Shown: piece after piece, positions 36,071 to 62,406 of the stretch | Numbering within the stretch: the first letter of the stretch is position 1 | How the letters are laid out: each line of letters begins with the position of its first letter | DNA from: Flavobacteriaceae bacterium | GTDB taxonomy: Bacteria > Bacteroidota > Bacteroidia > Flavobacteriales > Flavobacteriaceae | Direction of reading: 5' to 3' | Assembly (NCBI GenBank): GCA_024640565.1 | Contig: JAHEET010000001.1 | Span: 1 to 64,000 of the forward strand | Length of the DNA: 64,000 bases | Translations under genes and position numbers: made by a program | The notes under the pieces: model-generated | Database searches by the model: none | Seen by the model: only the letters and a program-made list of their open reading frames with translations | What the model was told of the DNA's origin: nothing

Positions 36071-36081
36071 AATAAAGAAAA

Positions 36082-39622: not shown

Positions 39623-40537
39623 ATGAAAAATTTAAAAAATATTTATTTCCTCTTATTTTCCGCAATGGTGGCTTTTTATGGCTGTCAAGAAGATGAGTAT
39701 TCTTTTGGAGACATTGTGACGCCTTCAAATATTCAAATTACAGCTGAAATTGTAGGAGCAGATGCAGCAAACCCTTATGGGGATGGTAGTGGTGTTGTAA
39801 ATTTTGCAGCAACTGCAGACAATGCCGTATCCTACAAGTATGTATTCAATGGTGAAGAAACAGTTTCTTTGTCTGGAAACAATAGTATAAGCTTTAGTTC
39901 TCTAGGGGTAAACACCTATACGGTAACCGTAGTTGCTTCTGGAACTGCTGGCGTAAGTTCTAGCAAATCCATCGAAGTAGAAGTATTGTCTACCTATGCA
40001 CCCCCTGCAGATTTAATTGCAAAGCTCTATGGATACGATGCTGCAGACCCTACAGCAGTAACTTCTAGAACTTGGAAAATTCACTCAGCCAAAAACAAAC
40101 ACTTTGGATTAGGCCCCGTAGGAGGACAAGTTTTGACAGAATGGTATGGAGCTGGTCCCGATGAAAAAGTGGGAACAGGAATGTATGACGACCGTTTTAC
40201 CTTTAGTTCAGACGGTACCTTTACTCACGTTACCAATGGAACTATTTTTGGTAGAGATCCATATATCGTGAACGATTTAGGACCCAATGCATCCGGAAAT
40301 GTAAACGGAGCAGATATCGAAAACTATGCTTTTGACGATTATGCATCCACTTGGACTTTAACAGCTCCAGGAGGAACCGAAACGATTAGCCTTTCGGGGA
40401 CTGCATTTTTAGGATACTATACCGGTGGAAATCACCAGTATCAAATCTTTGATAGGGAAACTCCTAATGAAATGATCCTAAAAACAACCGATGCAAATGC
40501 TGAATTTGACTGGTGGTTCATCATTACTTTAGAATAA
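39623..40537 (+). CDS. PKD-like surface lipoprotein of the PUL
   Basis: Lipoprotein of 304 residues, with C21 after AFYG. A PKD-like domain (about 36-125) is followed by a C-terminal beta-rich domain (about 130-304; SRTWKIHSAKNKHFGLGPVGG, FTFSSDGTFTHVTNGTIFG) of a kind I recall at the N-terminus of some flavobacterial glucanases and in stand-alone binding proteins. No glycosidase catalytic pair is seen. It probably acts as a surface glycan-binding protein and ends the susCD operon. Confidence 0.65.
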   Translation: MKNLKNIYFLLFSAMVAFYGCQEDEYSFGDIVTPSNIQITAEIVGADAANPYGDGSGVVNFAATADNAVSYKYVFNGEETVSLSGNNSISFSSLGVNTYTVTVVASGTAGVSSSKSIEVEVLSTYAPPADLIAKLYGYDAADPTAVTSRTWKIHSAKNKHFGLGPVGGQVLTEWYGAGPDEKVGTGMYDDRFTFSSDGTFTHVTNGTIFGRDPYIVNDLGPNASGNVNGADIENYAFDDYASTWTLTAPGGTETISLSGTAFLGYYTGGNHQYQIFDRETPNEMILKTTDANAEFDWWFIITLE

Positions 40538-41005: not shown

Positions 41006-43210
41006 TTATCCTTTTACTTTGTTTTTGAAGTTTTCAAATTTTGTTGCTTCCTTTTTAGGCCAGCTATTGTTTGAAGTATCTACGTCCGCAGTTTCTTCGT
41101 CTGGATCTAGTTTAAAGCTTACAATTTCTTGAGTAGCAGAGAACACTCTTTTTACAGAAGTGTCGTTTTGCATCCAAATTTGAGCAGGGAAGGTTTGTCT
41201 TTCCGTAGTTCCATCTGCATAGGTCAATTCTACAATGATTGGCATTACCAATCCACCTGGCTTTTCAAACTCTACAGCATAGATAAAAGAAGGTACTTCT
41301 TTTCCATCTACATAAGTATCCATTGCTTTCGCATTGGCATCTTCCTTTTTGTCGGTAATGTATACCAAGTCTCCAAGGTTGTCAAAATACTGCTTGTATT
41401 GTTGTTTTAATTGGGTTACTCTTTCGTTTGGCTTGTCGGTTAAATACAAAGGCTTTACAGACTTAATTCCGATATCCGTTACATCCGTAGTATAGAACCA
41501 TCCTCTCCAGAACCAATCCAAATCCATTCCAGAAGCATCTTCCATAGAACGGAAGAAGTCAGCCGGTGTTGGGTGCTTAAACATCCATCTCTTCGAATAG
41601 GTTCTAAAAGCATGATCAAACAATTCAGGCCCCATAATGGTCTTTCTTAACATGTACAAACCGGCAGCTGGTTTCGAGTAGGCATTCGGTCCAAATTGCT
41701 TTACATAATCTCCTTGAGACATGATTGGAGAGATGTTCGATTGATCTCCGCCCATATAACGCGTAATCGCTTTGGTTGGGTTGGAAGCAAACAATTCGGC
41801 ATCATACACATCTTCTGCTAAAATTTCTACAAAAGAATTCAATCCTTCATCCATCCAAGTCCATTGTCTTTCGTCAGAGTTTACAATCATTGGAAAGAAA
41901 TTGTGCCCCACTTCATGAATAATCACACCAATCATTCCTTTTTTGGTTCTGTCTGAATAGGTTCCATCTGGATTTGGTCTTCCAAAGTTGAAGCAAATCA
42001 TTGGATATTCCATTCCTTGTCTTTCTGAGTGTACAGAAATTGCTTTAGAATATGGATAGTCAAAAGTTAATTTTGAGTATTCAACAAGGGTGGTAGCCAC
42101 CGCTCTAGTAGAGTGCTCTTCCCATAAAGGATTTCCTTCCTTCGGGTATAAAGAAACCGCCATTACAGTTTTTCCATTGACATTGGTTGCCATAGCATCC
42201 CAAATGTATTTTCTAGAAGTCGCAAAAGCAAAATCACGTACTTTGTCTGCTTTAAAGTGCCATGTTTTTGTTCCCGTAGCACGTCCTTTTTCTGCAGCTT
42301 CCGCTTCCGCTTGGGTCACAATTAAAACAGGATTGTCAAAAGTTTTTCTTGCTTTCGCAAAGCGTTGACGTTGTTTTTTAGACAATACTTTTTTCTCATT
42401 TTGTAAATCTCCCGTTGCATCTAAGATATGATCTGCAGGTACGGTAATTTTTACATCATAGCTTCCAAATTCTAAGGCCCATTCACTACGTCCCCAGAAT
42501 TGCATATTTTGCCAGCCTTCTACGTTGTTGTAGACTGCCAATCTTGGAAAAAACTGTGCAATGGTGTAGTTGTTGTTTCCGTCAGGAAATGTTTCCAAAC
42601 CAGATCTTCCTCCGTCTTTATTGATGTCGTTAATCTTATAATTCCATGCAATGCGAAATTTAAACTTTTCTCCTGGCTGTAAAGCATTTGGTAGGTTGAC
42701 ACGCATCATGGTTCTGTTGATGAAATGGGATAGGGGAGCACCATTACTTTCTACTGCTGTAATGTTGAATCCAAATCCTTTCTTTTCATTCATATAAGTA
42801 CTCTGAAAATTCGCTGGAGTGATAAAAAGAGAAGCACCGTTTGACTTCGCCAAGGGTGTTTTAGAATCGTCTGCTCTCATGTTCTGATCTAATTGGACCC
42901 ATAAGTAGTCTAAAACGTCCTTAGAATTGTTGTGGTAGGTAATGTTTTCATCACCATAAATACGATTGGCACTTTCATCCAAACGAATGTCCATTACATA
43001 ATCTACCTTTTGTTGCGTGTATTGGCTTCCTGGAGCGCCAGATGCAGCATGCTGGTCATTTGGTGTTGCCAAAACATCTTTCATTTGTCTGAATTTGTTT
43101 TGATCGGTGTGTCCTTGTTGTGTTTTCTTTTTTTCTTTAACAGGCGCTTGTGCAAAAGAAGCAGTCGCCACAAAGAAAAGTGAAAATACGAGTACAGATA
43201 ATTTTCTCAT
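41006..43210 (-). CDS. M1 family aminopeptidase (copy A)
   Basis: Secreted gluzincin metallopeptidase of 734 residues. The signal peptide ends near ATASFAQ. The zinc site is HEVGH (H432, E433, H436) with the third ligand E455 in WMDEGLNSF (spacing HEXXH-X18-E). The GAMEN-like exopeptidase motif appears as GMEYP. It removes N-terminal residues from peptides, probably in the periplasm. ATG 43210 (MRKLSVLVFSLFF) was chosen over 43276 because it starts the signal peptide. It is a close paralogue of the next gene. Confidence 0.88.
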   Translation of the reverse strand: MRKLSVLVFSLFFVATASFAQAPVKEKKKTQQGHTDQNKFRQMKDVLATPNDQHAASGAPGSQYTQQKVDYVMDIRLDESANRIYGDENITYHNNSKDVLDYLWVQLDQNMRADDSKTPLAKSNGASLFITPANFQSTYMNEKKGFGFNITAVESNGAPLSHFINRTMMRVNLPNALQPGEKFKFRIAWNYKINDINKDGGRSGLETFPDGNNNYTIAQFFPRLAVYNNVEGWQNMQFWGRSEWALEFGSYDVKITVPADHILDATGDLQNEKKVLSKKQRQRFAKARKTFDNPVLIVTQAEAEAAEKGRATGTKTWHFKADKVRDFAFATSRKYIWDAMATNVNGKTVMAVSLYPKEGNPLWEEHSTRAVATTLVEYSKLTFDYPYSKAISVHSERQGMEYPMICFNFGRPNPDGTYSDRTKKGMIGVIIHEVGHNFFPMIVNSDERQWTWMDEGLNSFVEILAEDVYDAELFASNPTKAITRYMGGDQSNISPIMSQGDYVKQFGPNAYSKPAAGLYMLRKTIMGPELFDHAFRTYSKRWMFKHPTPADFFRSMEDASGMDLDWFWRGWFYTTDVTDIGIKSVKPLYLTDKPNERVTQLKQQYKQYFDNLGDLVYITDKKEDANAKAMDTYVDGKEVPSFIYAVEFEKPGGLVMPIIVELTYADGTTERQTFPAQIWMQNDTSVKRVFSATQEIVSFKLDPDEETADVDTSNNSWPKKEATKFENFKNKVKG

Positions 43211-43326
43211 TTTTTTGTTTTTTTGAAATGGCGTGTAAATTAAGAATTTGAATTTAAATGAGTAAAAAAAAAGCAAAGAATTAACAAATATTTATCAGAC
43301 AAAACTTCTAAATAGTTGCAAAAAAA

Positions 43327-43351
43327 AAGCGAAATCAAATTGATTTCGCTT
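43327..43351 (-). terminator. Terminator of the second M1 peptidase gene
   Basis: AAGCGAAATCA (43327-43337) and TGATTTCGCTT (43341-43351) form an 11-bp stem with a 3-nt loop; on the minus strand it is followed by a T run. Confidence 0.85.
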
Positions 43352-43371
43352 TCTGGAAAAAAAGGCATTTT

Positions 43372-45492
43372 CTAACCTTTCATTTTCTTTTTAAATTGGG
43401 TAAATTTTATTTGCTCTTCTCTAGGAAAACTATTGTTTGAAGTATCTACATCTGCTGTTTCTAAATCTGGATCCAATGCAATTTTTGTAATCTCCTTTTC
43501 AGAGGAGAAGATCTTTGTCACTTCCTTGTCATTATATCTCCAAATTTGTGCTGGATAGGTTTTTCTTTCTTTAGCGCCGTCTTTATAAGTAAATTCTACA
43601 ATGATTGGCATCACCAACCCCCCCGGTTTGTTGTAGGTAATTTCATAATGAAATTTTGAATTAACCTCTTTATTGGTAAAACTTAATCCTGCAGAGGTAT
43701 CCTCCACAAATTCGATCTCGTCATTTTCACCTGTTTTTGTTTGAAACTTTTTTACACTTTGGATTCCAATGTCTGTTACGTCTGTTGTGTAGAACCATCC
43801 TCTCCAAAACCAATCTAAATCCATTGCAGAAGCATCTTCCATAGAACGAAAGAAATCGGCTGGCGTTGGATGTTTAAATTTCCATCGCTGTGAGTAGGTT
43901 TTAAAAGCATGATCAAACAATTCTTTTCCCATAATGGTTTCTCGAAGAATCCATAGGGCTGTAGCCGGTTTCCCATATGCGTTGTTCCCAAAACTATATA
44001 CGTTGTCTCCTTTAGACATGATGGGTGCAATTTTAGATTGATCTCCATTCATGTACTTGACAATATTTTTTGGATACCCTCTCGTAATTGGGAAATCTTT
44101 GTCATAGGCCAATTCTGCTAACATTTCCATATAAGAATTCAATCCCTCATCCATCCAAGTCCATTGTCTTTCATCCGAATTTACAATCATAGGAAAGAAA
44201 TTATGTCCTACTTCATGAATCGTTACTTTAATCATTCTGTATTTAACACGGTCCGAATAGGTTCCGTCAGCATTTGGTCTTCCAGGATTGAAACAAATTT
44301 GTGGATATTCCATTCCCATTTGTCCATCTACAGAAATTGCTTTGTGATATGGATAATCAAAAGTATATTCGGAATAGGTTTTTAAGGTTTGAGCCACTGC
44401 CTTTGTAGAATGGTCTCCATACAATGGGTTTGCCTCTCTAGAGTAGTAGGAATAGGCCATAACGGTCTTCCCATTTATGTCTACAGCCATACCGTCCCAA
44501 ATAAATTTTCTCGAACTTGCAAATGCATAATCACGCACATTGGTGGCTTTAAATTTCCAAGTTTTGGTTTTCGTTGCTCTTTTCTTTTCAACCTTTTCAG
44601 CTTCTTCCTGAGATTGAATGATGACAATTTTATCAAAAGACTTTTTAGCTTCTGCTAATTTTTTTAATTGCTTGCGTGTTAATACCTCTTTCTCATTGAG
44701 TAAAACACCTGTTGCACCCAACATATGATCTTCGGGCGTGGTAATGTTTACCGTGAAATCTCCAAATTCCAAAGCGAATTCACTACGTCCCCAAAATTGA
44801 TCATTCTGCCATCCTTCTACATTGTCATACACACACATTCTCGGATAAAATTGTGCAATTACATAGTTGTTGTTTCCATCCGGAAAGTGTTCATATCCAG
44901 ATCTTCCTCCTTGAGTTCTATGGTTGTTAATGTTGTACCACCATTTTATTTTGAATTCAAACGTAGCACCAGACGGCAAAGGTGTTGTAAGATTGATACG
45001 CATCATGGTTTGATTGATTGTGTAGGATAAGTCCGAACCATCTACATGGGTCACCTCTTCAATTTTAAAACCTCCATCAAAAGCTTCAGCTGGGAAGCTT
45101 CGATCGAACCTACTTTTACTTAGTTTGCGAGGTATTTTATTGGGTTGAATGTCTGGTGTTTTAGAATCTGAAGCACGCATGTTTTGATCTAACTGTACCC
45201 ATAAATAAGCAAGTTTGTCTACAGAATTATTGTGGTAGGTAATGGTTTCATTTCCATAAATTCGTTGGTTGTCATCATCTAAAACAATGTCCATATTGTA
45301 ATCTACCTTTTGTTGGGTATAAGCAATACCTGGAGCTCCAGAAGCTGTATGTTGGCTGTTTGGAGTTGCCAACTCATCTTTTAATTGTCTGAATTTATTC
45401 TGGTTTGTGTGTCCTTGTTTTGTTTTTTGCTGTGCAAAATTGGCTCCAGCGATGAAAACAAATGAAAACAATAGGAAGCTTAATTTTTTCAT
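43372..45492 (-). CDS. M1 family aminopeptidase (copy B)
   Basis: Secreted M1 metallopeptidase of 706 residues. The signal peptide ends at GANFAQ. The zinc motif is HEVGH (H426, E427, H430), with the third ligand E449 in WMDEGLNSYMEM, and the substrate motif is GMEYP. The same PSNSQHTASGAPG-type N-terminal segment and STNNSFP-type C-terminal end occur in copy A. The two copies come from a tandem duplication, but each has its own terminator. It is upstream of copy A on the same strand. Confidence 0.88.
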   Translation of the reverse strand: MKKLSFLLFSFVFIAGANFAQQKTKQGHTNQNKFRQLKDELATPNSQHTASGAPGIAYTQQKVDYNMDIVLDDDNQRIYGNETITYHNNSVDKLAYLWVQLDQNMRASDSKTPDIQPNKIPRKLSKSRFDRSFPAEAFDGGFKIEEVTHVDGSDLSYTINQTMMRINLTTPLPSGATFEFKIKWWYNINNHRTQGGRSGYEHFPDGNNNYVIAQFYPRMCVYDNVEGWQNDQFWGRSEFALEFGDFTVNITTPEDHMLGATGVLLNEKEVLTRKQLKKLAEAKKSFDKIVIIQSQEEAEKVEKKRATKTKTWKFKATNVRDYAFASSRKFIWDGMAVDINGKTVMAYSYYSREANPLYGDHSTKAVAQTLKTYSEYTFDYPYHKAISVDGQMGMEYPQICFNPGRPNADGTYSDRVKYRMIKVTIHEVGHNFFPMIVNSDERQWTWMDEGLNSYMEMLAELAYDKDFPITRGYPKNIVKYMNGDQSKIAPIMSKGDNVYSFGNNAYGKPATALWILRETIMGKELFDHAFKTYSQRWKFKHPTPADFFRSMEDASAMDLDWFWRGWFYTTDVTDIGIQSVKKFQTKTGENDEIEFVEDTSAGLSFTNKEVNSKFHYEITYNKPGGLVMPIIVEFTYKDGAKERKTYPAQIWRYNDKEVTKIFSSEKEITKIALDPDLETADVDTSNNSFPREEQIKFTQFKKKMKG

Positions 45493-50075: not shown

Positions 50076-53000
50076 ATGAAGAATTATTTATTAAGAATTA
50101 TTTTACTCAGCTGTTCTTTGAGCTTTTTTGCACAAACGAATAGCGTTAAGTTAATTGACAATGCTCAAGGAATAAGATTGTCTGTCAATGGGAACAGTTT
50201 TATGATTAATGGTATGAATTGGGACTATTTTCCAATTGGTACGAACTACTCATACAGTTTATGGAATCAGTCCGAAGATGTTATTAAGGCTGCTTTAGAT
50301 GCAGAAATGAGTTTACTCAAAAATATGGGTGTAAACACTATACGAGTATACACGGGCATTCAGCCGAAATGGATTACTTACATCTATGAAACCTATGGGA
50401 TTCATACAATGCTTAATCACTCCTTTGGTAGGTATGGATTGACAATCAATGGCGCTTGGGTGGCCAAGACAGATTATTCAGATGCGACTACGCAAGCTGT
50501 TTTGTTGGAGGAAATGAAAGCCGTTGTTTCTGAATACAAAAACACCCCTGGATTACTTATGTACCTATTAGGAAATGAAAATAATTATGGATTGGTATGG
50601 AAAGGAGCCGAAACGGAAGACTTGCCTATCAATGAAGATGATTATTCTGTTGCCGCTAAGTATCTATACCAAATGTTTAACAAGGCAGCAGTCCTTATGA
50701 AAGCGATCGATGGTTCGCATCCAGTGGCAATCTGTAATGGTGATTTAGGTTTTTTAGATATTGTTGCAAAAGAATGTAAGGATGTAGACATTTACGGAAC
50801 AAATATGTATCGTGGGAAGTCTTTCGGAGATGCCTTCAAAAGAGTAAAAAATGAACTAAACATGCCCATCATGTTTACAGAATTTGGAGCAGATGCCTTC
50901 AATGCAGTGACCAACGAAGAAGATCAAAAAATGCAAGCGCACTTTATGGTTGAAAACTGGAGAGAAATTTACCAAAATGCTGCCGGATTAGGAAAAGCAG
51001 AAAATTCTTTGGGTGGTTTTACCTTTCAGTTTAGTGATGGTTGGTGGAAGTTTGGTCAGACAAAAGATTTAGATGTGCACGACAACAATGCCTCTTGGTC
51101 CAACGGAGGGTATTACATAGATTTCAAAGAAGGAAAAAATAATATGAACGAAGAATGGTTTGGAATCTGTGCCAAAGGACCTACAAATGCGGCAGGATTG
51201 TATACTTTATATCCAAGAGCTGCGTATTATTCTTTACAAGAAGCACATCGCATCAATCCATTTGATGAAGGAGTTACCTCCAGTTCAGTAGCAAAACATT
51301 TTTCGAACATTAGTTTAATGGACGGTGTCTTAAGAGCAAGAGGCGGTAATGCTACGATGGGGAGTAGTGAAAAAATACGTCTGAGTAATTTAAGAGCAGA
51401 ATTTACAACATTTAATACAGGAGGAGATTTATTAACCACCCCAAGTATTGCCGATCCAGAAAATACAGGCTATCCAAATAGAACCGGTTTCGATCATATG
51501 CAATCTTACTTTGTTGGAGTACAAGCACAACCATCTGCAAATATGAGCGCAGAAGTGAATGTCAATGTTCTAGGAAATGTAGCCGCAAATCCGATTGATG
51601 AAATATTTTATGAAAATAGAAATCGTCCAGTTGTAGTCAATACAGATAATGGAAATGTTACGCTTACAGACAATAATAGAGTGCAAGTTTACAATGCATC
51701 TTTCGATTGGAAATCAAATGCTTTTAATGTGAGAGGTTTTTATAGAACTGGTCATTACCACTGGCAATATGAAGGTGATGTTTTTGGGTTATACCCAGAA
51801 GCAAATTATGGACCTAATTTAGATATTTACGGAGGTGAGATTTTAGGTGTAGAAGTAGATGGTAAAGGTGTTTTAGAAGGCTTAAAAGCGGCTTTTGGAC
51901 CACAATTATGGTGGGGAGCGAATCCGGCCTTGCTTTTAAAATATAGTACACAAATAGGAAATTACACCTTTACAAGTGTGTTTCATGAAGATGTTAATAA
52001 AAGAGATACTAGAGAAGCACAAACATCTGGTTTTATTCCCTTACCTCAAACACGAAGACTTACCCTAGCATTGGAAAGAAAATATGACAATTTTGGATTC
52101 CAATTAGGAGGAATCTGGGGAGGTCAACCTTTAAACGGAAGAGAATATCAAGATATTAGATACAATAATGATGGTACAAGTGATGTTGTGGTAGATCGTG
52201 TAAAAGCAGCTGATAACTGGGGAAGTAAATTAAAAGTTACCTACACCAAAGGAACTTTTAACTGGTATGCACAATCTGCTGTCATGGGACTTGTTGCAAA
52301 CGGAGGTGCCGATGCAACCACTACTTTTACAGGTTGGAAATTGAAAGACACCGGAAGTGGGAATCAGGCAAACTTTTTAACAGGATTTACATTCAGTTCA
52401 GGAAACTTACAAATTGCACCAAACTTTTTATGGCAAAAACCTCTTGTAGCTGCCATGCCAAATGATATTGATGCTCCAGGAAGATTGAGAAATATACAAG
52501 CAGATCCATTTGTGGTAAGAGGCAACAGGGAAACAACTGCAGGAGAAATTTTATTTACCTACGATCCAACCCCAGGAACTTGGATGTATGAGTGGGATAA
52601 TGACCGTGCAGAAGATGCAAATTTTGCGATGAATTTAGGATTTGTATACAGACACCTACCAACAACACAAGATGCTGCAATCGGTTTCTTTTCCAATCGA
52701 TCAATTTTTGCCTTTGGAGAATCAACACCTGCAGAAGACCTTTGGGAAGTAAATTCAAGAATTGTTTCCAAAATGAGTCCAGACTTTGGGTTTATTGCAA
52801 ACCTATATTACGGAAACGGTCAAGCAAACGGGAGTGATGCACGACTGATAACAAGATCGGGAGGAGACCTTCGTATGATTTATAATAAATTGAAAGTAAC
52901 CGCTACTGCAAAGTTTAATGATTGGGGACCTTTTGACTATCATCGAGATTTTAACCTAACGTATCCAACACAGCTAATGTTGGATTTTTCGACTACTTTA

Positions 53001-53192
53001 GGAAAGCCAGGTTGGTTTGTGCTGCCAAACACCAAAATGGGAATCCGAGGAACTTGGAGATCCCTAGACCAATATTCTCCGAGATATACTTTTAGCAGTA
53101 CAGATGCTTCTACTTTAAACCTTGCAGGACAGTCGAACGGTTCTGAATGGGAAATTAGAACATACATTCATATTAATGTTGGAAAACAATAA
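50076..53192 (+). CDS. Secreted GH-A-type glycosidase fused to a putative outer-membrane beta-barrel
   Basis: Protein of 1038 residues. A signal peptide (about 1-19, ending SFFAQ) precedes a TIM-barrel glycosidase-like domain (about 22-400) resembling GH2-TIM or GH72-like enzymes of clan GH-A (FMINGMNWDYFP, GVNTIRVYTG). E168 in LLGNENN is the likely acid/base and E269 in MFTEFGAD the likely nucleophile. Residues about 420-1038 are a series of alternating polar/aromatic strands (LKVTYTKGTFNWYAQ, FLTGFTFSSGNLQIAPNFLW, NSRIVSKMSPDFGFIANLYYG, ending WEIRTYIHINVGKQ) that looks like an outer-membrane barrel. The fold and localisation of this part are inference. It heads the second PUL operon; the next gene begins 12 bp later. 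The exact GH family is not determined. Confidence 0.7.
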   Translation: MKNYLLRIILLSCSLSFFAQTNSVKLIDNAQGIRLSVNGNSFMINGMNWDYFPIGTNYSYSLWNQSEDVIKAALDAEMSLLKNMGVNTIRVYTGIQPKWITYIYETYGIHTMLNHSFGRYGLTINGAWVAKTDYSDATTQAVLLEEMKAVVSEYKNTPGLLMYLLGNENNYGLVWKGAETEDLPINEDDYSVAAKYLYQMFNKAAVLMKAIDGSHPVAICNGDLGFLDIVAKECKDVDIYGTNMYRGKSFGDAFKRVKNELNMPIMFTEFGADAFNAVTNEEDQKMQAHFMVENWREIYQNAAGLGKAENSLGGFTFQFSDGWWKFGQTKDLDVHDNNASWSNGGYYIDFKEGKNNMNEEWFGICAKGPTNAAGLYTLYPRAAYYSLQEAHRINPFDEGVTSSSVAKHFSNISLMDGVLRARGGNATMGSSEKIRLSNLRAEFTTFNTGGDLLTTPSIADPENTGYPNRTGFDHMQSYFVGVQAQPSANMSAEVNVNVLGNVAANPIDEIFYENRNRPVVVNTDNGNVTLTDNNRVQVYNASFDWKSNAFNVRGFYRTGHYHWQYEGDVFGLYPEANYGPNLDIYGGEILGVEVDGKGVLEGLKAAFGPQLWWGANPALLLKYSTQIGNYTFTSVFHEDVNKRDTREAQTSGFIPLPQTRRLTLALERKYDNFGFQLGGIWGGQPLNGREYQDIRYNNDGTSDVVVDRVKAADNWGSKLKVTYTKGTFNWYAQSAVMGLVANGGADATTTFTGWKLKDTGSGNQANFLTGFTFSSGNLQIAPNFLWQKPLVAAMPNDIDAPGRLRNIQADPFVVRGNRETTAGEILFTYDPTPGTWMYEWDNDRAEDANFAMNLGFVYRHLPTTQDAAIGFFSNRSIFAFGESTPAEDLWEVNSRIVSKMSPDFGFIANLYYGNGQANGSDARLITRSGGDLRMIYNKLKVTATAKFNDWGPFDYHRDFNLTYPTQLMLDFSTTLGKPGWFVLPNTKMGIRGTWRSLDQYSPRYTFSSTDASTLNLAGQSNGSEWEIRTYIHINVGKQ

Positions 53193-53204: not shown

Positions 53205-54608
53205 ATGAAAACAAGAAAACAAATTTATTCAAAAATTACCCTTCTTTTAAGTTTACTTTTAATTATAACCATAGGCTGTGAAAGAGCGCTTTCAGAAGAT
53301 GTTGTTTTGGCTACCTATTCTCCATCGCCGGATGTTTATATAGATGGTTTTAGTAGTGGGCTAGAATACTACCCATATTTAAATTCTAAATACGAAGCCT
53401 TTTCTGTAGACACACAAGTAAAGTATAAAGGAAGTTCTTCAATGCGTTTTGATGTTCCTGTAGAAGGAGATCCAGCCGGAGGGTATGCGGGAGCCATTTT
53501 TAGAGATGATAATGGTGGAAGGAATTTAACTCAGTATGATGTTTTAACATTTTGGGCAAAAGCAACCCAATCGGCAAAAATTAATGACATTGGTTTTGGA
53601 CAAGACTTTGGAGAAAACAAATTCGAAGTAAGTAGTCGAGGATTGCAATTGACAACCAATTGGGTAAAATATATAATCCCAATTCCAGATGCCTCCAGAT
53701 TAATTCAAGAAAAAGGAATGCTTTGGTATGCAGAAGGGCCAGAAAATGGAGAAGGATATAGCTTTTGGATCGATGAAGTGAAGTTTGAAAAATTAGGAAC
53801 CATCTCAGCGATTGAACCACTAATTTTATTGGGAGACGACAAAGTAATTACCTCCTTTAATGGTGTACAAACAACCATAGATGGAGTTTCTGCAACCTTT
53901 AGCTTCACAGATCAGCTCTCTCAAACCATCTCGATCTCTCCTGCTTATTTAAACTTCAGTTCTTCGAATACAAGTGTTGCTACTGTTGATGAATTTGGTG
54001 TAGTAACTACCCTTAATGAAGGAACTGCAGTCATAACAGCAACCTTTAATGAGCAACAAGTGTCAGGAAGTCTAACCATTAATTCTTTAGGAGCATTTTC
54101 TCATGCACCAGTTCCAACACAGGATCCAGCAAATGTAATTTCATTATTTTCAGATGCCTATACCAATGTACCTGTAAATTATTACAATGGATATTGGGCT
54201 CCTTGGCAAACAACTTTGTCAGATGATTTCACAGTAGATGGCGACAATATTTTACAATACACCATTTTTAATTTTGTAGGTGTGGAGTTCAGTTCACCTA
54301 CCGTAGATGCTACATCAATGTCCCATTTTCATTTAGACGCATACATTCCAGGTCCCATTACTCCTGGAAGACAGCTTAGAGTTTTGTTGGTAGATTTTGG
54401 TGCCGATGGCGCTTATGGAGGTGGAGACGATACCAGGCATTCAACAACCTTTACAGCCCCTACATTGGTGTCTCAAAATTGGATATCAATTGATTTGCCT
54501 TTTTCGAGTTTAACAGGTTTGGATAGCAGATCTAATTTGGCACAATTGATATTGGAAGGTGGAGATGGCTCCAAAATTTTTATAGACAACCTTTATTTTT
54601 ATAATTAA
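53205..54608 (+). CDS. Surface glycan-binding lipoprotein with Ig-like and shared modules
   Basis: Lipoprotein of 467 residues, lipobox TIGC with C25. Seen in order: a jelly-roll carbohydrate-binding-like domain (about 40-195; YIDGFSSGLEYYPYL...SFWIDEVKFEKLG), a bacterial Ig-like Big_2-type domain (about 198-295; STVATV-like SNTSVATVDEFGVVTTLNEGTAVITA), and the shared ~150-residue module (about 304-467, from DPANVISLFSDAYTNV to GSKIFIDNLYFYN). No catalytic pair is seen. It likely binds glucan at the surface beside the enzyme-barrel protein. Confidence 0.7.
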   Translation: MKTRKQIYSKITLLLSLLLIITIGCERALSEDVVLATYSPSPDVYIDGFSSGLEYYPYLNSKYEAFSVDTQVKYKGSSSMRFDVPVEGDPAGGYAGAIFRDDNGGRNLTQYDVLTFWAKATQSAKINDIGFGQDFGENKFEVSSRGLQLTTNWVKYIIPIPDASRLIQEKGMLWYAEGPENGEGYSFWIDEVKFEKLGTISAIEPLILLGDDKVITSFNGVQTTIDGVSATFSFTDQLSQTISISPAYLNFSSSNTSVATVDEFGVVTTLNEGTAVITATFNEQQVSGSLTINSLGAFSHAPVPTQDPANVISLFSDAYTNVPVNYYNGYWAPWQTTLSDDFTVDGDNILQYTIFNFVGVEFSSPTVDATSMSHFHLDAYIPGPITPGRQLRVLLVDFGADGAYGGGDDTRHSTTFTAPTLVSQNWISIDLPFSSLTGLDSRSNLAQLILEGGDGSKIFIDNLYFYN

Positions 54609-54665: not shown

Positions 54666-57600
54666 ATGAAGTATTTTATGACGAAGAATCCGATTTTTTT
54701 AGGTAAAAATAGCGCTTATAACCCTTCTCTAGAAGTAAGCGGAACTCAAGTAATTATTGAAGGTGAGGTCTATTACAAAATTTTAAATAGCAATAAAATG
54801 AGACCGTTTTTCATCAGTCTCGTAAGCAATTCCGATCATTGGATGTTTATTTCTAGTAATGGAGGTTTATCTGCTGGTAGAAAAAATGCTGAGAACGCAT
54901 TGTTTCCCTACTATACAGATGACAAAATAACAGAATCTTCCGATATTACTGGAAGTAAAACCATACTTCATGTTTATAAAGAGGCGAAAACATTTCTTTG
55001 GGAACCGTTTTCAGACAAATATGAGGGTGTATACGCAATTAAAAGAAATTTGTACAAAAATAATTATGGCAACAAGCTTATTTTTGAAGAAATTAATGAA
55101 GATCTAGGAATTACTTTTCAATACCAATGGAATTCAAGTACCAAATATGGTTTTGTTAAAAAATCTACCTTATATAACACAAACACCGCTGCTGTTGAGG
55201 TAAGTATTTTAGACGGAGTTCAAAATATTTTACCTTATGGGATCGCTTCAGATTTTCAAAATAGTACGAGTAATCTTATTGACGCCTACAAAAAATGTGA
55301 ATTAGAAAAAGATACCGGTTTAGGAATTTTTGCTTTGAGCGCTGTGATTGTTGATAAAGCAGAACCAAGTGAAGCTTTGAAGGCCAATACAGTTTGGTCT
55401 ACAGGGGTTAAAAATCCGACTTATTTAATTTCGTCACTACAACTAAATGCTTTCAGAAAAGGTGAAGAGGTATTCCAAGAAGAAGATATAAAGGCAGAAA
55501 AAGGGGCTTATTTTACTGTGCAGCACCTTACACTAACTTCTAATAATCCAACTTCTTGGATGTTGGTAGCAAATGTAAATCAGAACCTTATTTCAATACA
55601 AGAAACAAAGGCAATCATTAAAAACACTCCAGATGTTACTGCTTTGATTCAAAAAGATATCGAAACGGGTACCGCAAAGCTGGTTCAACTAGTTGCTGCC
55701 TCTGATGGATTGCAATTGGGTGAAAACCAACCCAGAAACACAAGGCATTTTGCCAATACTCTTTTTAATATTATGAGAGGTGGTATCTTTGATGATAATT
55801 ATCAAATTGAAAAAGAAGATTTTATAAAATACATTTCAAAGGCCAATAAAAAAGTCACCAAAAAGAAAGAAGATGTTTTAAAAAACTTACCTGAACTTTT
55901 CAATGTTGATTTTATTAAAAACCTAGCAAATGCTCAGTATGACGCCAATTTCAAAAGACTTTGTTACGAATATTTACCATTAAAATTTAGTAGAAGACAT
56001 GGAGATCCAAGTAGACCTTGGAATAAGTTTTCTATCAATACACGAAGTGAAATTGACGGTTCTAAAATTTTAGATTACCAAGGAAATTGGAGAGATATAT
56101 TCCAGAACTGGGAAGCCTTAGCGCATTCTTATCCAGAGTTCATAGAAGGAATGATCTATAAGTTTTTAAATGCAACAACTTTTGAAGGATACAATCCGTA
56201 TCGAGTAACCAAAGATGGTTTCGACTGGGAGATTATTGAAGAAAACGACCCTTGGTCTTATATTGGATACTGGGGAGATCATCAAATTATTTATTTGCTG
56301 AAGTTCCTAGAATTTATAGAAAAATATTATCCAAATAAATTGGCTAAAAACTTCACAGAAGATGTGTTTGTATATGCGAATGTACCTTATGTAATTAAAA
56401 GTTACGAGGACACCTTAAAAGACCCAAAAGATACCATTGATTTCAATGCAAAATTAGATCAAAAAATTCAAGAAGAGAAAGAAAGACTTGGTGCTGATGG
56501 CGCTTTGTTAAGAGACGAAAATTTCTTTATTCACAAAGTGAATTTAATCGAAAAATTATTGGCCACTGTATTGGCGAAAGTTTCCAACTTTATTCCAGGA
56601 GGAGGTATTTGGTTGAACACCCAAAGGCCCGAATGGAATGATGCAAACAATGCTCTAGTAGGGAATGGAGTATCTATGGTGACACTCTATTATTTAAGAA
56701 GATTTATTAACTTTTTTGAAGATATCATAGAAAAATCTTCGGAAGCATCCTATGCAGTCTCAAAAGAACTAACACACTTTTTCCAATCGGTAGCTTCAGG
56801 ATTATACAGTCAAGAGGGCATATTGTCAGGAAAAATTTCAGATACTGACCGTAAAACACTTTTAGACATCCTTGGAAAAGCAGGAAGTACCTATAGAGCC
56901 ACAATATATGAAACGGGTTTTACTAGTGATAAAGAAGCAATTACGAAAGATGATTTAACTTCGTTCTTCAATGTGCTTAAAAAATATTTAGACCACACAA
57001 TTGTTGCCAACAAACGTACAGACAATCTGTATCATGCCTATAACCTGATGACGGTAGAAAACGATGCTGAGGTGTCTATTTCCTATCTATCAGAAATGTT
57101 AGAAGGTCAAGTAGCTGTTTTAAGTTCTGGTTATTTATCTGCAAAAGAAGCCTTATCTGTGTTGGATGGTTTAAAAGCAAGTGCTCTCTTTAGAGAAGAT
57201 CAATACAGTTATATTCTCTATCCGAATAAAGACCTGCCAAGGTTTACTAGCAAGAATATTATTCCAGCAGCATCCGTAGAAAAATCGGAATTATTAAATC
57301 AACTCCTCGCAGATGGGAATACCCAAATCATCGAAAAAGACATTACAGGGGCATGTCACTTTAATGCGAATTTTAACAACGGCGCTCGATTAAAAGAAAC
57401 CTTGGATACCCTTTCAGATAAGTACCAATCTTTATTGGCAAAGGATGAAAAACTCATTTTAGCGATTTATGAAGAAATGTTTGATCATAAATCCTTTACA
57501 GGAAGATCTGGAACATTTTTTGGCTATGAAGGTTTAGGGTCAATCTACTGGCATATGGTTTCGAAGTTGCTAATTGCAGCTCAAGAAAACTGTTTGTTGG

Positions 57601-58136
57601 CAATTGAAGAAAATGAAAGTGAGGAAGTAATCGGAAGATTGTTGGAGCACTATTATGAAATAAATGAAGGGATTGGCGTTCATAAGTCTCCGGAATTGTA
57701 CGGTGCATTTCCAACAGATCCTTATTCACATACCCCAGCTGGAAAAGGGGCACAACAACCAGGAATGACCGGACAAGTGAAAGAAGATATTCTTTCGAGG
57801 TTCGGTGAAATTGGTGTTTTTGTAAAAGCCGGACAGTTACAGTTCAATCCAAGGTTGTTAAGAAAAGAAGAGTTTTTAACAACTTCAAAAGAGTTTGCCT
57901 ACGTTGATCTTGACAATAGCGAAAAGACCATACGGATAGAACCAAATAGTTTTTGTTTTACCTATTGTCAAATTCCAGTAATTTATAAGACTTCAGAGAA
58001 GAAGGGTGTTGAAGTGTCTTTTGAAGATGCATCAACCAAAACCTATGAAGACTTAATGATTGAGTCCTCGGTGAGTCAAAAAATATTTGAGAGAACCGGT
58101 GAAGTAAAAAAAATAATTGTTTTTATCCCTAAATAA
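54666..58136 (+). CDS. Putative beta-1,3-oligoglucan phosphorylase (GH149/GH161-like)
   Basis: Cytoplasmic protein of 1156 residues, with no signal peptide. Its layout fits the large GH94-related phosphorylases: an N-terminal beta-sandwich (about 1-300), a helical linker, and an (alpha/alpha)6 barrel with PRNTRHFANTLFNIMRGG, SRRHGDPSRPWNKF, YWGDHQIIYLLKF (D538) and EWNDANNALVGNG, where D659 matches the catalytic Asp of GH94 DWND motifs. GH149 and GH161 members split beta-1,3-oligoglucans with phosphate to glucose-1-phosphate. The family placement is from recall and context, not alignment. ATG 54678 (MTKNPIFLGK) is an alternative start beyond the hairpin. It precedes the GH17 gene by 2 bp. Confidence 0.65.
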   Translation: MKYFMTKNPIFLGKNSAYNPSLEVSGTQVIIEGEVYYKILNSNKMRPFFISLVSNSDHWMFISSNGGLSAGRKNAENALFPYYTDDKITESSDITGSKTILHVYKEAKTFLWEPFSDKYEGVYAIKRNLYKNNYGNKLIFEEINEDLGITFQYQWNSSTKYGFVKKSTLYNTNTAAVEVSILDGVQNILPYGIASDFQNSTSNLIDAYKKCELEKDTGLGIFALSAVIVDKAEPSEALKANTVWSTGVKNPTYLISSLQLNAFRKGEEVFQEEDIKAEKGAYFTVQHLTLTSNNPTSWMLVANVNQNLISIQETKAIIKNTPDVTALIQKDIETGTAKLVQLVAASDGLQLGENQPRNTRHFANTLFNIMRGGIFDDNYQIEKEDFIKYISKANKKVTKKKEDVLKNLPELFNVDFIKNLANAQYDANFKRLCYEYLPLKFSRRHGDPSRPWNKFSINTRSEIDGSKILDYQGNWRDIFQNWEALAHSYPEFIEGMIYKFLNATTFEGYNPYRVTKDGFDWEIIEENDPWSYIGYWGDHQIIYLLKFLEFIEKYYPNKLAKNFTEDVFVYANVPYVIKSYEDTLKDPKDTIDFNAKLDQKIQEEKERLGADGALLRDENFFIHKVNLIEKLLATVLAKVSNFIPGGGIWLNTQRPEWNDANNALVGNGVSMVTLYYLRRFINFFEDIIEKSSEASYAVSKELTHFFQSVASGLYSQEGILSGKISDTDRKTLLDILGKAGSTYRATIYETGFTSDKEAITKDDLTSFFNVLKKYLDHTIVANKRTDNLYHAYNLMTVENDAEVSISYLSEMLEGQVAVLSSGYLSAKEALSVLDGLKASALFREDQYSYILYPNKDLPRFTSKNIIPAASVEKSELLNQLLADGNTQIIEKDITGACHFNANFNNGARLKETLDTLSDKYQSLLAKDEKLILAIYEEMFDHKSFTGRSGTFFGYEGLGSIYWHMVSKLLIAAQENCLLAIEENESEEVIGRLLEHYYEINEGIGVHKSPELYGAFPTDPYSHTPAGKGAQQPGMTGQVKEDILSRFGEIGVFVKAGQLQFNPRLLRKEEFLTTSKEFAYVDLDNSEKTIRIEPNSFCFTYCQIPVIYKTSEKKGVEVSFEDASTKTYEDLMIESSVSQKIFERTGEVKKIIVFIPK

Positions 58137-58138
58137 GC

Positions 58139-59446
58139 ATGCAAAAGAAGCGAAGGTTTACTTATCGAATTTCTAGAAAAGCAATACGCATTTTGAGTAT
58201 GACGCTACTGGTGTTTGTTTTTTCATGTACTTCTTCAGTCCCCAAAGATGTAAGGGTCGAAAAGACATCTAAGACGGCTGCACAGCTCTTGGGGAATCCG
58301 AATTACTTGGCAATGTCTTACGGTGGTTATAGAGAAAACTCAAGAGACATACAACCTTCGATAGAAGCATTGAAAGAAGATTTAAAGATTCTTTCAGCAA
58401 TGGGTATTAAAATCATTCGAACCTATAATGTACAAATTCAATTTCCTCATGCGGCCAATGTTTTAAGAGCAATAACCGAGCTTAAAAAGGAAGATCCTAA
58501 TTTTGAAATGTATGTGATGTTGGGAGCTTGGATAGATTGTTTAAATGCATTGTCTTCATCTCTACCAGACCATACCAAAGAAAGTTTGCAAAATGCAGGA
58601 GAGATAGATAGAGCTGTAGCTTTGGCAAAACAATATCCAGCTATTGTAAAGGTAATTGCTGTGGGAAATGAAGCCATGGTAAAATGGGCTACAAGTTATT
58701 TTGTGCAGCCTAAAATAATCTTAAAATGGGTTAACCACCTTCAAAAATTAAAAAAAGAAGGCATCTTAAGTAAAGATCTATGGATTACAAGTTCCGATGA
58801 TTTTTCTTCATGGGGTGGCGGTGATTCTAGCTATCACACGCAAGATTTAGAAGCTTTGATGCGTGCAGTGGATTTTGTTTCAATGCATACCTATCCTTAT
58901 CATAATTCTCATTACAATCCTTCTTTTTGGAAAACACCAGACCATTTGGAGAATTTTTCAGAGCATGAAAAAATTGATGCTTCCATGTCGCGCGCGCTAC
59001 ATTTTGCAAAAAACCAATATTATGCAGTTTCAAACTATATGAAAAGTCTTGGAATTGAAAAGCCAATCCATATTGGAGAAACAGGATGGGCAACGGTTTC
59101 AAATGGAAAGTATGGGGTTGATGGATCCAGAGCAACGGATGAATACAAACAAGGTTTGTACTATCAGGCAATTCGAAGATGGACCAATAAAGAAGGTATT
59201 TCTTGTTTCTTTTTTGAAGCTTTTGATGAGCCTTGGAAAGATCCTAATAATGTCAGCGGTTCTGAAAATAATTTTGGTTTGATTACGCGCGATGGTGCTG
59301 TAAAATTTGGACTGTGGAATTTAGTAGATCAAGAAGTTTTTAAGGATTTGAAAAGAAATGGAAATCCAATAACAAAAACATTTAATGGTAATCATAAGGA
59401 ATTGATGAAAACTGTGTTGGTTCCGAATACAATATATAAACGATAA
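58139..59446 (+). CDS. GH17 family glucanase lipoprotein
   Basis: Lipoprotein of 435 residues, with C30 after FVFS; the N-terminus has an unusually long basic stretch before the hydrophobic core. The TIM barrel of family GH17 (beta-1,3-glucanases and glucosyltransferases) is indicated by LKILSAMGIKIIRTYNVQ. E178 in AVGNEAMV is the acid/base and E314 in HIGETGWA the nucleophile. FFFEAFDEPWK follows. It likely cuts beta-1,3-glucan at the surface or in the periplasm. Confidence 0.88.
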   Translation: MQKKRRFTYRISRKAIRILSMTLLVFVFSCTSSVPKDVRVEKTSKTAAQLLGNPNYLAMSYGGYRENSRDIQPSIEALKEDLKILSAMGIKIIRTYNVQIQFPHAANVLRAITELKKEDPNFEMYVMLGAWIDCLNALSSSLPDHTKESLQNAGEIDRAVALAKQYPAIVKVIAVGNEAMVKWATSYFVQPKIILKWVNHLQKLKKEGILSKDLWITSSDDFSSWGGGDSSYHTQDLEALMRAVDFVSMHTYPYHNSHYNPSFWKTPDHLENFSEHEKIDASMSRALHFAKNQYYAVSNYMKSLGIEKPIHIGETGWATVSNGKYGVDGSRATDEYKQGLYYQAIRRWTNKEGISCFFFEAFDEPWKDPNNVSGSENNFGLITRDGAVKFGLWNLVDQEVFKDLKRNGNPITKTFNGNHKELMKTVLVPNTIYKR

Positions 59447-59457
59447 ATCTAAAATCG

Positions 59458-60954
59458 ATGAAAAAAACAATCTACCTATATCAAATAATACTTCTATTGA
59501 TCGTTTTGAGTTGCAATCAAAAAGAAAGTGAATTACTGGTTACGGTATACGAAACTTCGGAAAGTGGGAATCACTTAACAAAAGTTTCGGGTTTCACAGC
59601 AGTTGAAAGCGCAGCTACTATTACTTTAAATCCTTTAGAGAAATTTCAAACGATTTCGGGATTTGGGGGGGCTTTTACAGAGGCTTCTGCTTATTTACTC
59701 AACCAATTAAGTGAGAAAAATAGAGATAGCATCATGCAAGCCTATTTTGGTAAAGAGGGGGCCAATTATTCATTAACAAGAACCCATATGAATTCCTGTG
59801 ACTTTTCTTTGTCTCAGTATTCCTATTCTCCTGTTGCAGAAGACATGACATTGGAACATTTTACCATTCAAGAAGATAAAGATGATCTAATACCAATGAT
59901 CAAAGAAGCTTTGAGAGTGTCTGAAGACGGCTTTAGAATCATTGCTTCCCCTTGGACCGCTGCCCCTTGGATGAAAGACAATAAAAAATGGGTAGGTGGG
60001 AAATTATTGCCAAAGTACTACGATACTTGGGCCTTGTTTTTTTCTAAATATTTAGATGCCTACAAAGAAGAAGGGATTGATCTTTGGGGTTTTACAGTAG
60101 AAAATGAGCCGCATGGGAATGGTAATAATTGGGAAAGTATGCATTATTCTCCCAAAGAAATGACCACTTTTGTGGAACATCACCTAGGACCAAAGCTAGA
60201 AGCGGATGGTTATGGCGATAAAATTATTTTAGGATATGATCAAAATAGAGCGGGTATTAAAGAATGGGTAGATGTAATGTATGCGACTGAAGCATCTTCA
60301 AAATATTATGATGGTACTGCGATTCATTGGTACGAAAGCACCTATGAAGTTTTTCCAGATGCATTGCAATATGCACATCAAAAAGCACCTAATAAATATT
60401 TAATAGAAACCGAAGGTTGTATTGATTCTCAAATTCCTGAATGGAAAAATGACGCTTGGTATTGGTTGAAAGAAGCTACTGATTGGGGCTGGGATTGGGC
60501 ATCAGAAAAAGACAAGTATTTACATCCAAAATATGCACCTGTAAACCGCTATGCCAGAGATATTATTGGCTGCCTAAACAATTGGGTAGATGGATGGATT
60601 GACTGGAACATGGTATTGGACAAACAAGGAGGTCCAAATTGGTTTAAAAATTGGTGTGTGGCACCCATATTGGTAGATCCAGAGAAAGATGAGGTCTATT
60701 TTACGCCGCTCTATTATACCATGGCACATTTTAGCAAATACATTCGTCCCAATGCACAAGTAATTGGCTTGGAAAGTACTGATAAAGAATTACAAGTCAC
60801 CGCTGCAAAAAACCCAGATGGTACAATTGCAGTAATTGTATTTAATGAAGGAAAAAAAGAAAAGAATTTTAAAGTTCGCCTAGGAATCAAAGAAACTTCA
60901 ATCCGGATCAATGCACAAGCATTGCAAACGATTGTTATAGCATCAACCATATAA
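59458..60954 (+). CDS. GH30 family glucanase lipoprotein
   Basis: Lipoprotein of 498 residues, with C19 after VLS. The GH30 fold is recognisable from QTISGFGGAFTEASAYLL and RIIASPWTAAPWMKD. E217 in TVENEPHGN is the acid/base and E319 in LIETEGC the nucleophile. A C-terminal beta domain (TAAKNPDGTIAVIVFNEG) follows. In laminarin loci GH30 enzymes commonly remove beta-1,6-linked glucose branches; the similarity to glucosylceramidase is general to the family. It follows the GH17 gene by 11 bp. Confidence 0.9.
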   Translation: MKKTIYLYQIILLLIVLSCNQKESELLVTVYETSESGNHLTKVSGFTAVESAATITLNPLEKFQTISGFGGAFTEASAYLLNQLSEKNRDSIMQAYFGKEGANYSLTRTHMNSCDFSLSQYSYSPVAEDMTLEHFTIQEDKDDLIPMIKEALRVSEDGFRIIASPWTAAPWMKDNKKWVGGKLLPKYYDTWALFFSKYLDAYKEEGIDLWGFTVENEPHGNGNNWESMHYSPKEMTTFVEHHLGPKLEADGYGDKIILGYDQNRAGIKEWVDVMYATEASSKYYDGTAIHWYESTYEVFPDALQYAHQKAPNKYLIETEGCIDSQIPEWKNDAWYWLKEATDWGWDWASEKDKYLHPKYAPVNRYARDIIGCLNNWVDGWIDWNMVLDKQGGPNWFKNWCVAPILVDPEKDEVYFTPLYYTMAHFSKYIRPNAQVIGLESTDKELQVTAAKNPDGTIAVIVFNEGKKEKNFKVRLGIKETSIRINAQALQTIVIASTI

Positions 60955-60969
60955 TAAACAAAAACGCAT

Positions 60970-62406
60970 ATGTCAAATATCAATACCCCTAATAAAATCC
61001 CAATGGGACAAAAAATAGCTTTTGGATTGGGAATGTTGGCCAATCAAATGTTTCCCGCTGCATTGGGTATTTTTATGGTGGTTTTAGTACAAGATTATAA
61101 AATTCCTACTTGGATGTGGGGAATCTTATTTTTTCTTCCACGTATTTTTGATTCCATCACAGATCCAATCATGGGTTTTATTTCAGACAACACAAGATCC
61201 ATTTGGGGAAGACGCAGACAATACGTTTTTTTAGGAGCCATCATTATGGGCGTGTCTTTTGCTTTAATGTGGCAACTTCAAGCAGTTAATATTGAAGAAA
61301 GTATCAATTACAACTTTACTTATTTTTTGATTTGGTCTTTGGTTTTTTACGTTGGATTAACTGTTTTTAGTGTTCCTTATGTAGCGATGGGCTATGAAAT
61401 GAGTGATGATTTTCATGAACGCACAAACATCATGGCAATTGCACAATGGATTGGGCAATGGGCTTGGGTAATAGCTCCTTGGTTTTGGGTGGTTATGTAT
61501 GATGAAAATTGGTTTGGAAATGATACAGCCGAAACCACTAAATATCTTGGTGTTTGGGTGGGTGTTATTTTTGCTTTATTAGCAATGGTACCTGCTATTT
61601 TTATTAAAAGTGAATCCACTCTAGATGATGATAATTTAACACCTTTATCACTAAAAACAATTGGTGGAAGCCTGAAACAGATTTCAGAGAACTTTAAAGA
61701 AGCTTTTAAAATTGAGGCTTTTAGAAAACTATGTTTTTCAACGTTTCTAATTTTTAATGCGTTTAATACGGTTGCAGGTTTTTCGTTTTTTATCGTAGTA
61801 TACTATCTGTTCGAGGGAAGCACAGAGGCAGCAGGTCTTTGGCCAACCCTTTTGGGAAGTATTGGCGCTTTGTCGACTACTTTTTTAGTAATACCAACCG
61901 TAGCAAAAATGTCATTAAAAATAGGGAAAAAGAAGACGTTTTTAGTTTCCCAAGGAATTTCGGTGATTGGGTATTTAATGCTTTGGTTTTTGTTCATTCC
62001 AGGGAAACCTTACATGTTTTTATTTGCATTGCCTTTTTTCTCGTTCGGAATCGGAAGTCTGTTTACCATCATGATGTCCATGACTTCAGATATTATTGAT
62101 ATCGATGAATTGAATACGGGGAAACGAAGAGAAGGTGTATTTGGAGCGATTTATTGGTGGATGGTAAAATTTGGTTTTGCAATTGCTGGATTATTAACCG
62201 GCGCTATCATGTCATTAGTAGGTTTTGTGCCAGATACCATTAACTCGGAAGCATCCATTACTGGAATAAGATTATTTTATTCCGGGTTGCCAATACTAGG
62301 TACACTGGGAGCAATTTGGATAATGCGTAATTACGATCATACCGAAGAAAAAGCGCGAGCAGTAAGTCGAGAATTAGATGCAAGATCTGCTCAAAATAAC
62401 TCTTAA
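60970..62406 (+). CDS. GPH family sugar:cation symporter (MFS)
   Basis: Inner-membrane transporter of 478 residues with about 12 transmembrane segments, of the glycoside-pentoside-hexuronide symporter group within the MFS superfamily. The motifs GMLANQMFPAALGIFMVVLVQ, RIFDSITDPIMGFISDNTRS and RRRQYVFLGA are typical. It is the last gene of the operon, 15 bp after GH30, and is followed by a terminator. It probably imports the oligosaccharides released by GH17/GH30 for the phosphorylase; this is inferred from context. Confidence 0.88.
   Translation: MSNINTPNKIPMGQKIAFGLGMLANQMFPAALGIFMVVLVQDYKIPTWMWGILFFLPRIFDSITDPIMGFISDNTRSIWGRRRQYVFLGAIIMGVSFALMWQLQAVNIEESINYNFTYFLIWSLVFYVGLTVFSVPYVAMGYEMSDDFHERTNIMAIAQWIGQWAWVIAPWFWVVMYDENWFGNDTAETTKYLGVWVGVIFALLAMVPAIFIKSESTLDDDNLTPLSLKTIGGSLKQISENFKEAFKIEAFRKLCFSTFLIFNAFNTVAGFSFFIVVYYLFEGSTEAAGLWPTLLGSIGALSTTFLVIPTVAKMSLKIGKKKTFLVSQGISVIGYLMLWFLFIPGKPYMFLFALPFFSFGIGSLFTIMMSMTSDIIDIDELNTGKRREGVFGAIYWWMVKFGFAIAGLLTGAIMSLVGFVPDTINSEASITGIRLFYSGLPILGTLGAIWIMRNYDHTEEKARAVSRELDARSAQNNS

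Follow-up and report, generated by a model that had tools for sequence, protein, structure and literature searches.

The gene at 50076–53192 (+ strand) of the window, the whole 64,000-nucleotide stretch of Flavobacteriaceae DNA analysed here, encodes a 1038-residue protein in which a signal peptide is followed by a clan GH-A glycosidase and an outer-membrane barrel. This enzyme-barrel fusion is a real, large and widespread family. It is accompanied by a lipoprotein gene (53205–54608, + strand), new here and absent from the earlier note on this DNA. Sequence or structure prediction shows both domains, an intact catalytic pair, the fold of the barrel, the strict lipoprotein pairing and the polysaccharide utilization locus (PUL) context. 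As best explanation we favour, at somewhat better than even confidence, a capture-pass-cut unit for uptake of β-1,3-glucan (laminarin).

The only Pfam match in the fusion covered the N-terminal part, as a GH2 TIM barrel (PF02836, residues 72–284, 31.5 bits for a cut-off of 21). GH2 enzymes carry N-terminal sugar-binding and Ig-like sandwich domains ahead of the TIM barrel; no Pfam match to either was found in the fusion up to E 1, and its TIM barrel starts almost directly behind the signal peptide. The AlphaFold2 model of the full protein (pLDDT 85.2, pTM 0.78) displayed a TIM barrel at residues 24–400, helices at 402–410 and 414–423 and, over residues 434–1036, long strands. Nearest folds of the TIM part were the GH157/GH158 laminarinases, with GH158 alignments extending to query residues 427–436. 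At the profile level the GH158 match was very weak (E 0.0013) and GH157 was absent from the matches; the clan GH-A fold with an active-site Glu pair, as in GH157/GH158, was found in the enzyme part. E168 (50577–50579, + strand), the predicted acid/base, belongs to an LLGNE motif behind β-strand 160–165, and E269 (50880–50882, + strand), the predicted nucleophile, to a TEFG motif within strand 265–270. Both were invariant in all 149 aligned homologues, and the catalytic pair named in the earlier note was thus right. Its TIM barrel of residues 22–400 held as a fold and not as a limit of the enzyme, which extends to about residue 423: the glycosidase domain comprises residues 21–423 (50136–51344, + strand), TIM barrel and both helices included.

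A linker (residues 424–433; 51345–51374, + strand), 10–13 residues long in all 149 homologues, leads to the barrel (residues 434–1036; 51375–53183, + strand), for which we counted 22 strands from DSSP of two models, full and barrel alone. Since VIA rows for the whole fusion model covered the TIM part alone, the barrel was folded and searched separately. Residues 424–1038 were modelled by AlphaFold2 with pLDDT 87.2 and pTM 0.86. With this model, 49 of the best 50 listed Foldseek rows were outer-membrane barrel proteins, by name or known as such, including 4q35, labelled merely 'membrane protein', which we take to be LptD; the remaining row, 9j9p, is an engineered protein as long as a porin. Similarly, all 50 listed rows of VIA-align 2 were outer-membrane barrels. 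The Foldseek superpositions were loose, with query-based TM-scores no higher than 0.36 and an rmsd of 12–19, so that these matches indicate the class of barrel and not its family. In/out hydrophobic alternation of the strands had a mean of 2.22, a value reached by 1 of 2000 within-strand shuffles (shuffle mean 1.38); it was tested as a mean only because individual strands were uneven, with strands 1 and 4 near zero. The structure predictions asked for earlier, of the full protein and of the barrel region, gave a barrel and bore out the reading of residues 420–1038 as an outer-membrane type. A soluble β-sandwich reading of the same residues was rejected, the barrel-alone model matching outer-membrane barrels. 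Among 26 members no binding domain of Pfam was matched, the sole match being DUF6882, in 2 of them (best E 0.03). A plug domain (PF07715) gave no Pfam match in the fusion up to E 1, the TIM barrel filling the N-terminal part.

At E 0.001 or better, a search with the barrel part returned 4961 of 7995 scored candidates. Among the best 120 of these, 109 were 1010–1063 residues long and 11 were shorter (611–975). In ten of the shorter ones some of the enzyme is missing, and the eleventh (P0092) is a barrel alone, from residue 428; all 11 are 96.0–99.6% identical to the window protein over their own length and are probably broken, partial or mis-called copies. A search from a distant member gave 5672 matches, with named sources including Melioribacteraceae, Ignavibacteriaceae and Calditrichota, and the best 120 of them were all 1027–1105 residues long with both parts joined. 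In 395 genomes of the window's phylum (Bacteroidota, by the names of relatives), the whole protein found a match in 54, some merely distant TIM barrels. The barrel profile matched 35: 33 with the fusion (including G204, where it is split across two contigs), one with a broken copy (G235) and one with a 54-position barrel remnant behind an enzyme-only gene (G119). By this profile no stand-alone barrel gene was found in the 395 genomes, and its search of all ORFs of the loci retrieved nothing other than fusions or parts of them (E 0.38 for the best other match). The proposal of a glycosidase joined to an outer-membrane-type barrel was supported, the parts being together in 33 of the 35 barrel-matching genomes and in the best 120 relatives of the distant member.

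In the partner lipoprotein, a lipobox-like Cys is followed by ERALSED and further by a Big_2 Ig domain, and some of its relatives show CBM11/CBM30-like matches. Against Pfam, 19 relatives gave Big_2 in 13, CBM_11 in 6 and CBM30 in 5, as well as Big-like domains, with none of the SusD domains PF07980 and PF14322; solved relatives offered nothing informative beyond Big_2-type and weak CBM matches. The gene lies directly downstream of the fusion in 106 of 107 loci (out of 112 fused loci, those whose downstream sequence extends for 1 kb or more). L106, from genome G144, is the exception: a weaker relative is located just upstream and a near-full-length copy about 9.6 kb off on the same contig. A near-full-length match was present in 33/33 fusion genomes (split over two contigs in G305) and in 0/10 genomes with enzyme-only, truncated or decayed genes, compared by hand (G104, G119, G123, G235, G242, G297, G304, G332, G336 and G368). 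The C-terminal domain (about 300–467), the only portion present in G104 and G123, is common in other proteins and was left out of these counts. One genome without fusion, G126, carries a 33% identical relative over residues 44–466. The pairing of lipoprotein and fusion is strict and looks obligate. A lipobox-like Cys occurred in 104/104 near-full-length relatives by a looser pattern, used instead of a stricter one that found 54/108; these signal classes are patterns and not SignalP calls. Behind the Cys, an acidic tail with at least 3 D/E at +2 to +9 was observed in 82/104 and [ST][DE][DE] in 64/104. This tail resembles SDDFE, the surface export consensus reported for F. johnsoniae (PMC5080379).

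The pair is followed on the + strand by genes for a GH149 β-1,3-glucan phosphorylase (54666–58136; NF058639, 1800 bits), a GH17-like enzyme (58139–59446; its 25.9 bits fall short of Pfam's cut-off, 28.2, and it is conserved with the cluster), a GH30 enzyme (59458–60954) and an MFS/GPH sugar symporter (60970–62406), the latter with no GH17 match in Pfam. On the same strand upstream are a Y_Y_Y/LuxR-type PUL regulator (29895–32843) and, in the other half of the PUL, a SusC-SusD pair (33038–37575). Context was counted in the 51 loci whose flanks each extend for 9.9 kb or more, by tblastn with the window's proteins at E 1e-5, a procedure by which a remote SusC could be missed. GH149 was found downstream in 44/51 loci, GH17 in 41/51 and GH30 in 34/51, which links the fusion to these genes, a co-occurrence that the earlier note had asked about. 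SusC was found in 15/51 and SusD in 14/51, both 1.8–7 kb upstream of the fusion in 14/51. A regulator homologue ends less than 600 bp upstream of the fusion in 28/51 loci, and tblastn found no SusC/SusD within 10 kb in 27 of these 28. Spot checks of two loci, L015 and L068, revealed no other complete SusC-sized gene; their complete ORFs of at least 600 residues were those of regulator, fusion and GH149, besides the lipoprotein in L015 and a UvrA-like gene in L068, and both have a GH16 gene between lipoprotein and GH149. The earlier view of a second PUL half devoid of SusCD thus holds for the window lineage and many others, and fails in 14/51 relatives' loci.

The enzyme-only genes L111–L118 have open frames of 438–480 residues, the start of a ninth (L127) being cut by the contig end. 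They end near query residues 415–431 and keep both catalytic Glu in 9/9; the region of helix 402–410 is kept in 9/9 and that of helix 414–423 in 5/9 (L111, L112, L115, L117 and L118). GH149 is directly downstream, at 32–270 bp, in 6/8 of L111–L118 (L111, L113, L114, L115, L117 and L118). In a tree of 69 TIM domains, enzyme-only forms appear at 5 places among the fusions; the tree was built quickly and without bootstraps and, as the outgroup is barrel-less too, leaves the first gain of the fusion undated. With enzyme-only genes at five places and the lipoprotein absent, several joint losses of barrel and lipoprotein most likely took place. The database protein P0261 reaches only just past strand 1. 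By crude signal patterns (not SignalP), 102 enzyme-only database proteins, those of 400–480 residues among 120 listed relatives of this form, divided into 48 lipoprotein-like, 43 with plain signals and 11 with neither, and 146 fusions into 2, 135 and 9, respectively. The enzyme-only lipoproteins mostly were without export motif (at least 3 D/E in 7/48; [ST][DE][DE] in 2/48).

These data bear on which side of the membrane holds the enzyme. As a rule, outer-membrane barrels have long loops outside and both termini in the periplasm. In our models, loops after odd strands were mostly long (19, 36, 61, 20, 30, 26, 31, 28, 7, 11 and 24 residues) and even strands were mostly followed by short turns (2, 3, 2, 3, 2, 2, 21, 2, 2 and 12). 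By this rule strand 1 would start, and strand 22 end, in the periplasm. The linker of 10–13 residues would leave little room to thread the chain out through the pore. Strand parity, short linker and signal sequences together make a periplasmic position of the enzyme, under the pore, the most likely one. The acidic tail of the partner, mostly missing in enzyme-only lipoproteins, similarly suggests that the lipoprotein probably lies outside the cell and the enzyme inside. Glucan cutting at the cell surface, as the earlier note had proposed, is disfavoured accordingly: strand 1 is on the short-turn side, and the helices before the barrel are kept in enzyme-only relatives, whose signals are plain or of a mostly non-export lipoprotein type. 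For the same reasons it is unlikely that the fusion is a new kind of autotransporter, whose barrel would bring the enzyme to the surface for laminarin to be cut there. Such a protein would share the general autotransporter (type V) layout of N-terminal passenger, here an enzyme, and C-terminal barrel, and the partner lipoprotein does look surface-exposed. However, known autotransporter barrels have 12 or 16 strands and not 22, no pore-spanning helix was recognised in the fusion, and both pre-barrel helices seem part of the enzyme, the first being retained by 9/9 and the second by 5/9 enzyme-only relatives and both falling within the reach of the GH158 alignments.

Whether the barrel is channel or anchor, alternatives both raised before, was approached by conservation. 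Columns at least 90% conserved made up 41% of the outer loops, 41% of the enzyme and 35% of the strands. Loop 557–617 (51744–51926, + strand), the longest, was the most conserved of the long loops (66%), with conserved His, Trp and Tyr abundant, and is a candidate glycan-contact or constriction loop; loop 951–961 reached 91% and five outer loops 10–31%. Altogether the outer loops hold 22 conserved aromatic or His residues. Among strand positions, 48% were conserved on the pore side and 22% on the lipid side (sides assigned by hydrophobicity). Periplasmic loop 830–850, with 67% conserved columns, could be a docking site for the enzyme. That the barrel merely anchors the glycosidase to the membrane, replacing the lipid that anchors enzyme-only relatives, has on its side the signal counts, 48/102 lipoprotein-like enzyme-only proteins versus 2/146 fusions, by which lipid and barrel seem interchangeable tethers. 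Yet outer loops and pore-side residues are conserved as much as the enzyme, a 600-residue, 22-strand barrel is costly for a mere tether, and the lipoprotein's presence or absence tracks the barrel and not the enzyme. A pure anchor thus appears rather unlikely, and the channel role is favoured by loop and pore-side conservation together with a glycan-binding-type lipoprotein coming and going with the barrel. We consider it very unlikely that the pair is auxiliary to SusC/SusD, with oligosaccharides entering via SusCD and the barrel only docking the enzyme beside it or recruiting the lipoprotein. This would agree with the SusC/SusD genes upstream in 14/51 loci and in the window, but not with the 27/51 loci where regulator and fusion-lipoprotein pair occur with no SusC/SusD found within 10 kb, nor with the spot checks within the loci L015 and L068.

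For the capture-pass-cut unit we infer the following course. The surface lipoprotein (53205–54608) would bind β-glucan outside the cell, and the plug-less 22-stranded barrel would act as a pore letting it through. The GH157/GH158-like β-glucanase, tethered to the periplasmic start of strand 1, would cut the emerging chain at the inner mouth. Short products would be trapped and handed to the GH17, GH30, sugar symporter and GH149 phosphorylase of the cluster. Only tentatively, and at less than even confidence, do we extend this to a class of outer-membrane polysaccharide importers independent of SusCD, made of a CBM-type lipoprotein, a plug-less 22-strand pore and an attached periplasmic glucanase, in which cleavage and not TonB would make uptake one-way.

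By the features tested, the pair stands outside SusC, SusD and known autotransporters. SusC barrels have 22 strands. The fusion, by our count, shares this number with them, and an adjoining lipoprotein gene in a PUL with SusC/SusD; unlike SusC, it is without plug or carboxypeptidase-like domain and has its enzyme covalently attached, and unlike SusD its partner is Big_2/CBM-like. Solved GH157/GH158 endo-β-1,3-glucanases (9g4n, 9oro and 6pal) are chains of about 400–530 residues without membrane barrel. To our knowledge, laminarin uptake in Bacteroidota has been attributed nearly entirely to TonB-driven SusC/SusD. An enzyme-barrel with its own lipoprotein, in many clusters without nearby SusC/SusD, would be a new import design with a clear prediction, cleavage inside, behind the pore. 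The SusCD-independent importer class, if real, would explain at the molecular level how PULs without SusC/SusD support 'selfish' laminarin uptake. Among algal carbon pools laminarin is a very large one (PMC11345257), and in a North Sea bloom peak expression was highest for PULs with laminarin as predicted target (PMC10108472).

In PMC titles and abstract openings no glycosidase-outer-membrane-barrel fusion was mentioned among the matches listed. Among the closest described cases is FbGH17B of Formosa, likewise a transporter joined to a β-glucan hydrolase in a laminarin PUL, for which the authors suggested that hydrolysis and uptake might be coupled and knew no other transporter-CAZyme fusion (Unfried et al., PMC6246565). 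It differs in combining an inner-membrane MFS carrier with GH17 (PMC6246565), against an outer-membrane barrel, a GH157/158-like enzyme and a lipoprotein partner here. Judging by gene order, the fusion has very likely been met before: a 'GH2 β-glycosidase' near GH16, GH149, GH17, GH30 and MFS genes in a Muricauda laminarin PUL (PMC13188888) is very likely the same gene, and probably so is the 'GH0' beside GH149 in PULs of North Sea Polaribacter and Aurantivirga bloom MAGs (PMC10108472). In the searched text of these two papers 'porin' did not occur and 'barrel' was used for TIM barrels only. By expression, GH0 ranked among the top 10% in one Aurantivirga MAG, and an NS4-clade MAG has a variant 1 laminarin PUL without susCD (PMC10108472). 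An outer-membrane protein can stand behind a gene label such as 'GH2 glycosidase' or 'GH0'. In databases, relatives of the fusion are named 'glycosidase', 'hypothetical protein' or 'glycoside hydrolase family 2 TIM barrel-domain containing protein'.

The two halves of the PUL, one with the SusC-SusD pair and the other with the fusion of a TIM-barrel glycosidase to an outer-membrane beta-barrel, are separated in the window by two M1-type peptidase genes and others (41006-45492). Among the relatives, loci such as L049, L056 and L081 showed the compact order SusC-SusD-PKD/CBM-p39623-fusion, where p39623 denotes the gene at window 39623-40537. Its product, a 304-aa protein, matched no Pfam family at E 0.01. 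Of the genes tested, this one was the nearest upstream neighbour of the fusion in several loci of the SusCD type.

At L119 (genome G235), stops split the fusion gene into pieces, and a search of the same genome for a match to the partner lipoprotein, encoded directly after the fusion in the window, found none. This fusion locus is apparently undergoing decay. Distant TIM relatives (24-27% identical) adjoin GH149 on the opposite strand at L123 and L126, in two genomes, and possibly represent a further branch of GH149-linked glycosidases.

In the published Formosa MFS-GH17 fusion, GH17 is joined to the MFS, whereas no GH17 match was found for the MFS symporter at window 60970-62406. We also observed a 1040-residue open frame (window 63063-64000) extending beyond the window end to about 65672 (G000:C11), with at least three matches to the C-terminal domain of the partner lipoprotein.
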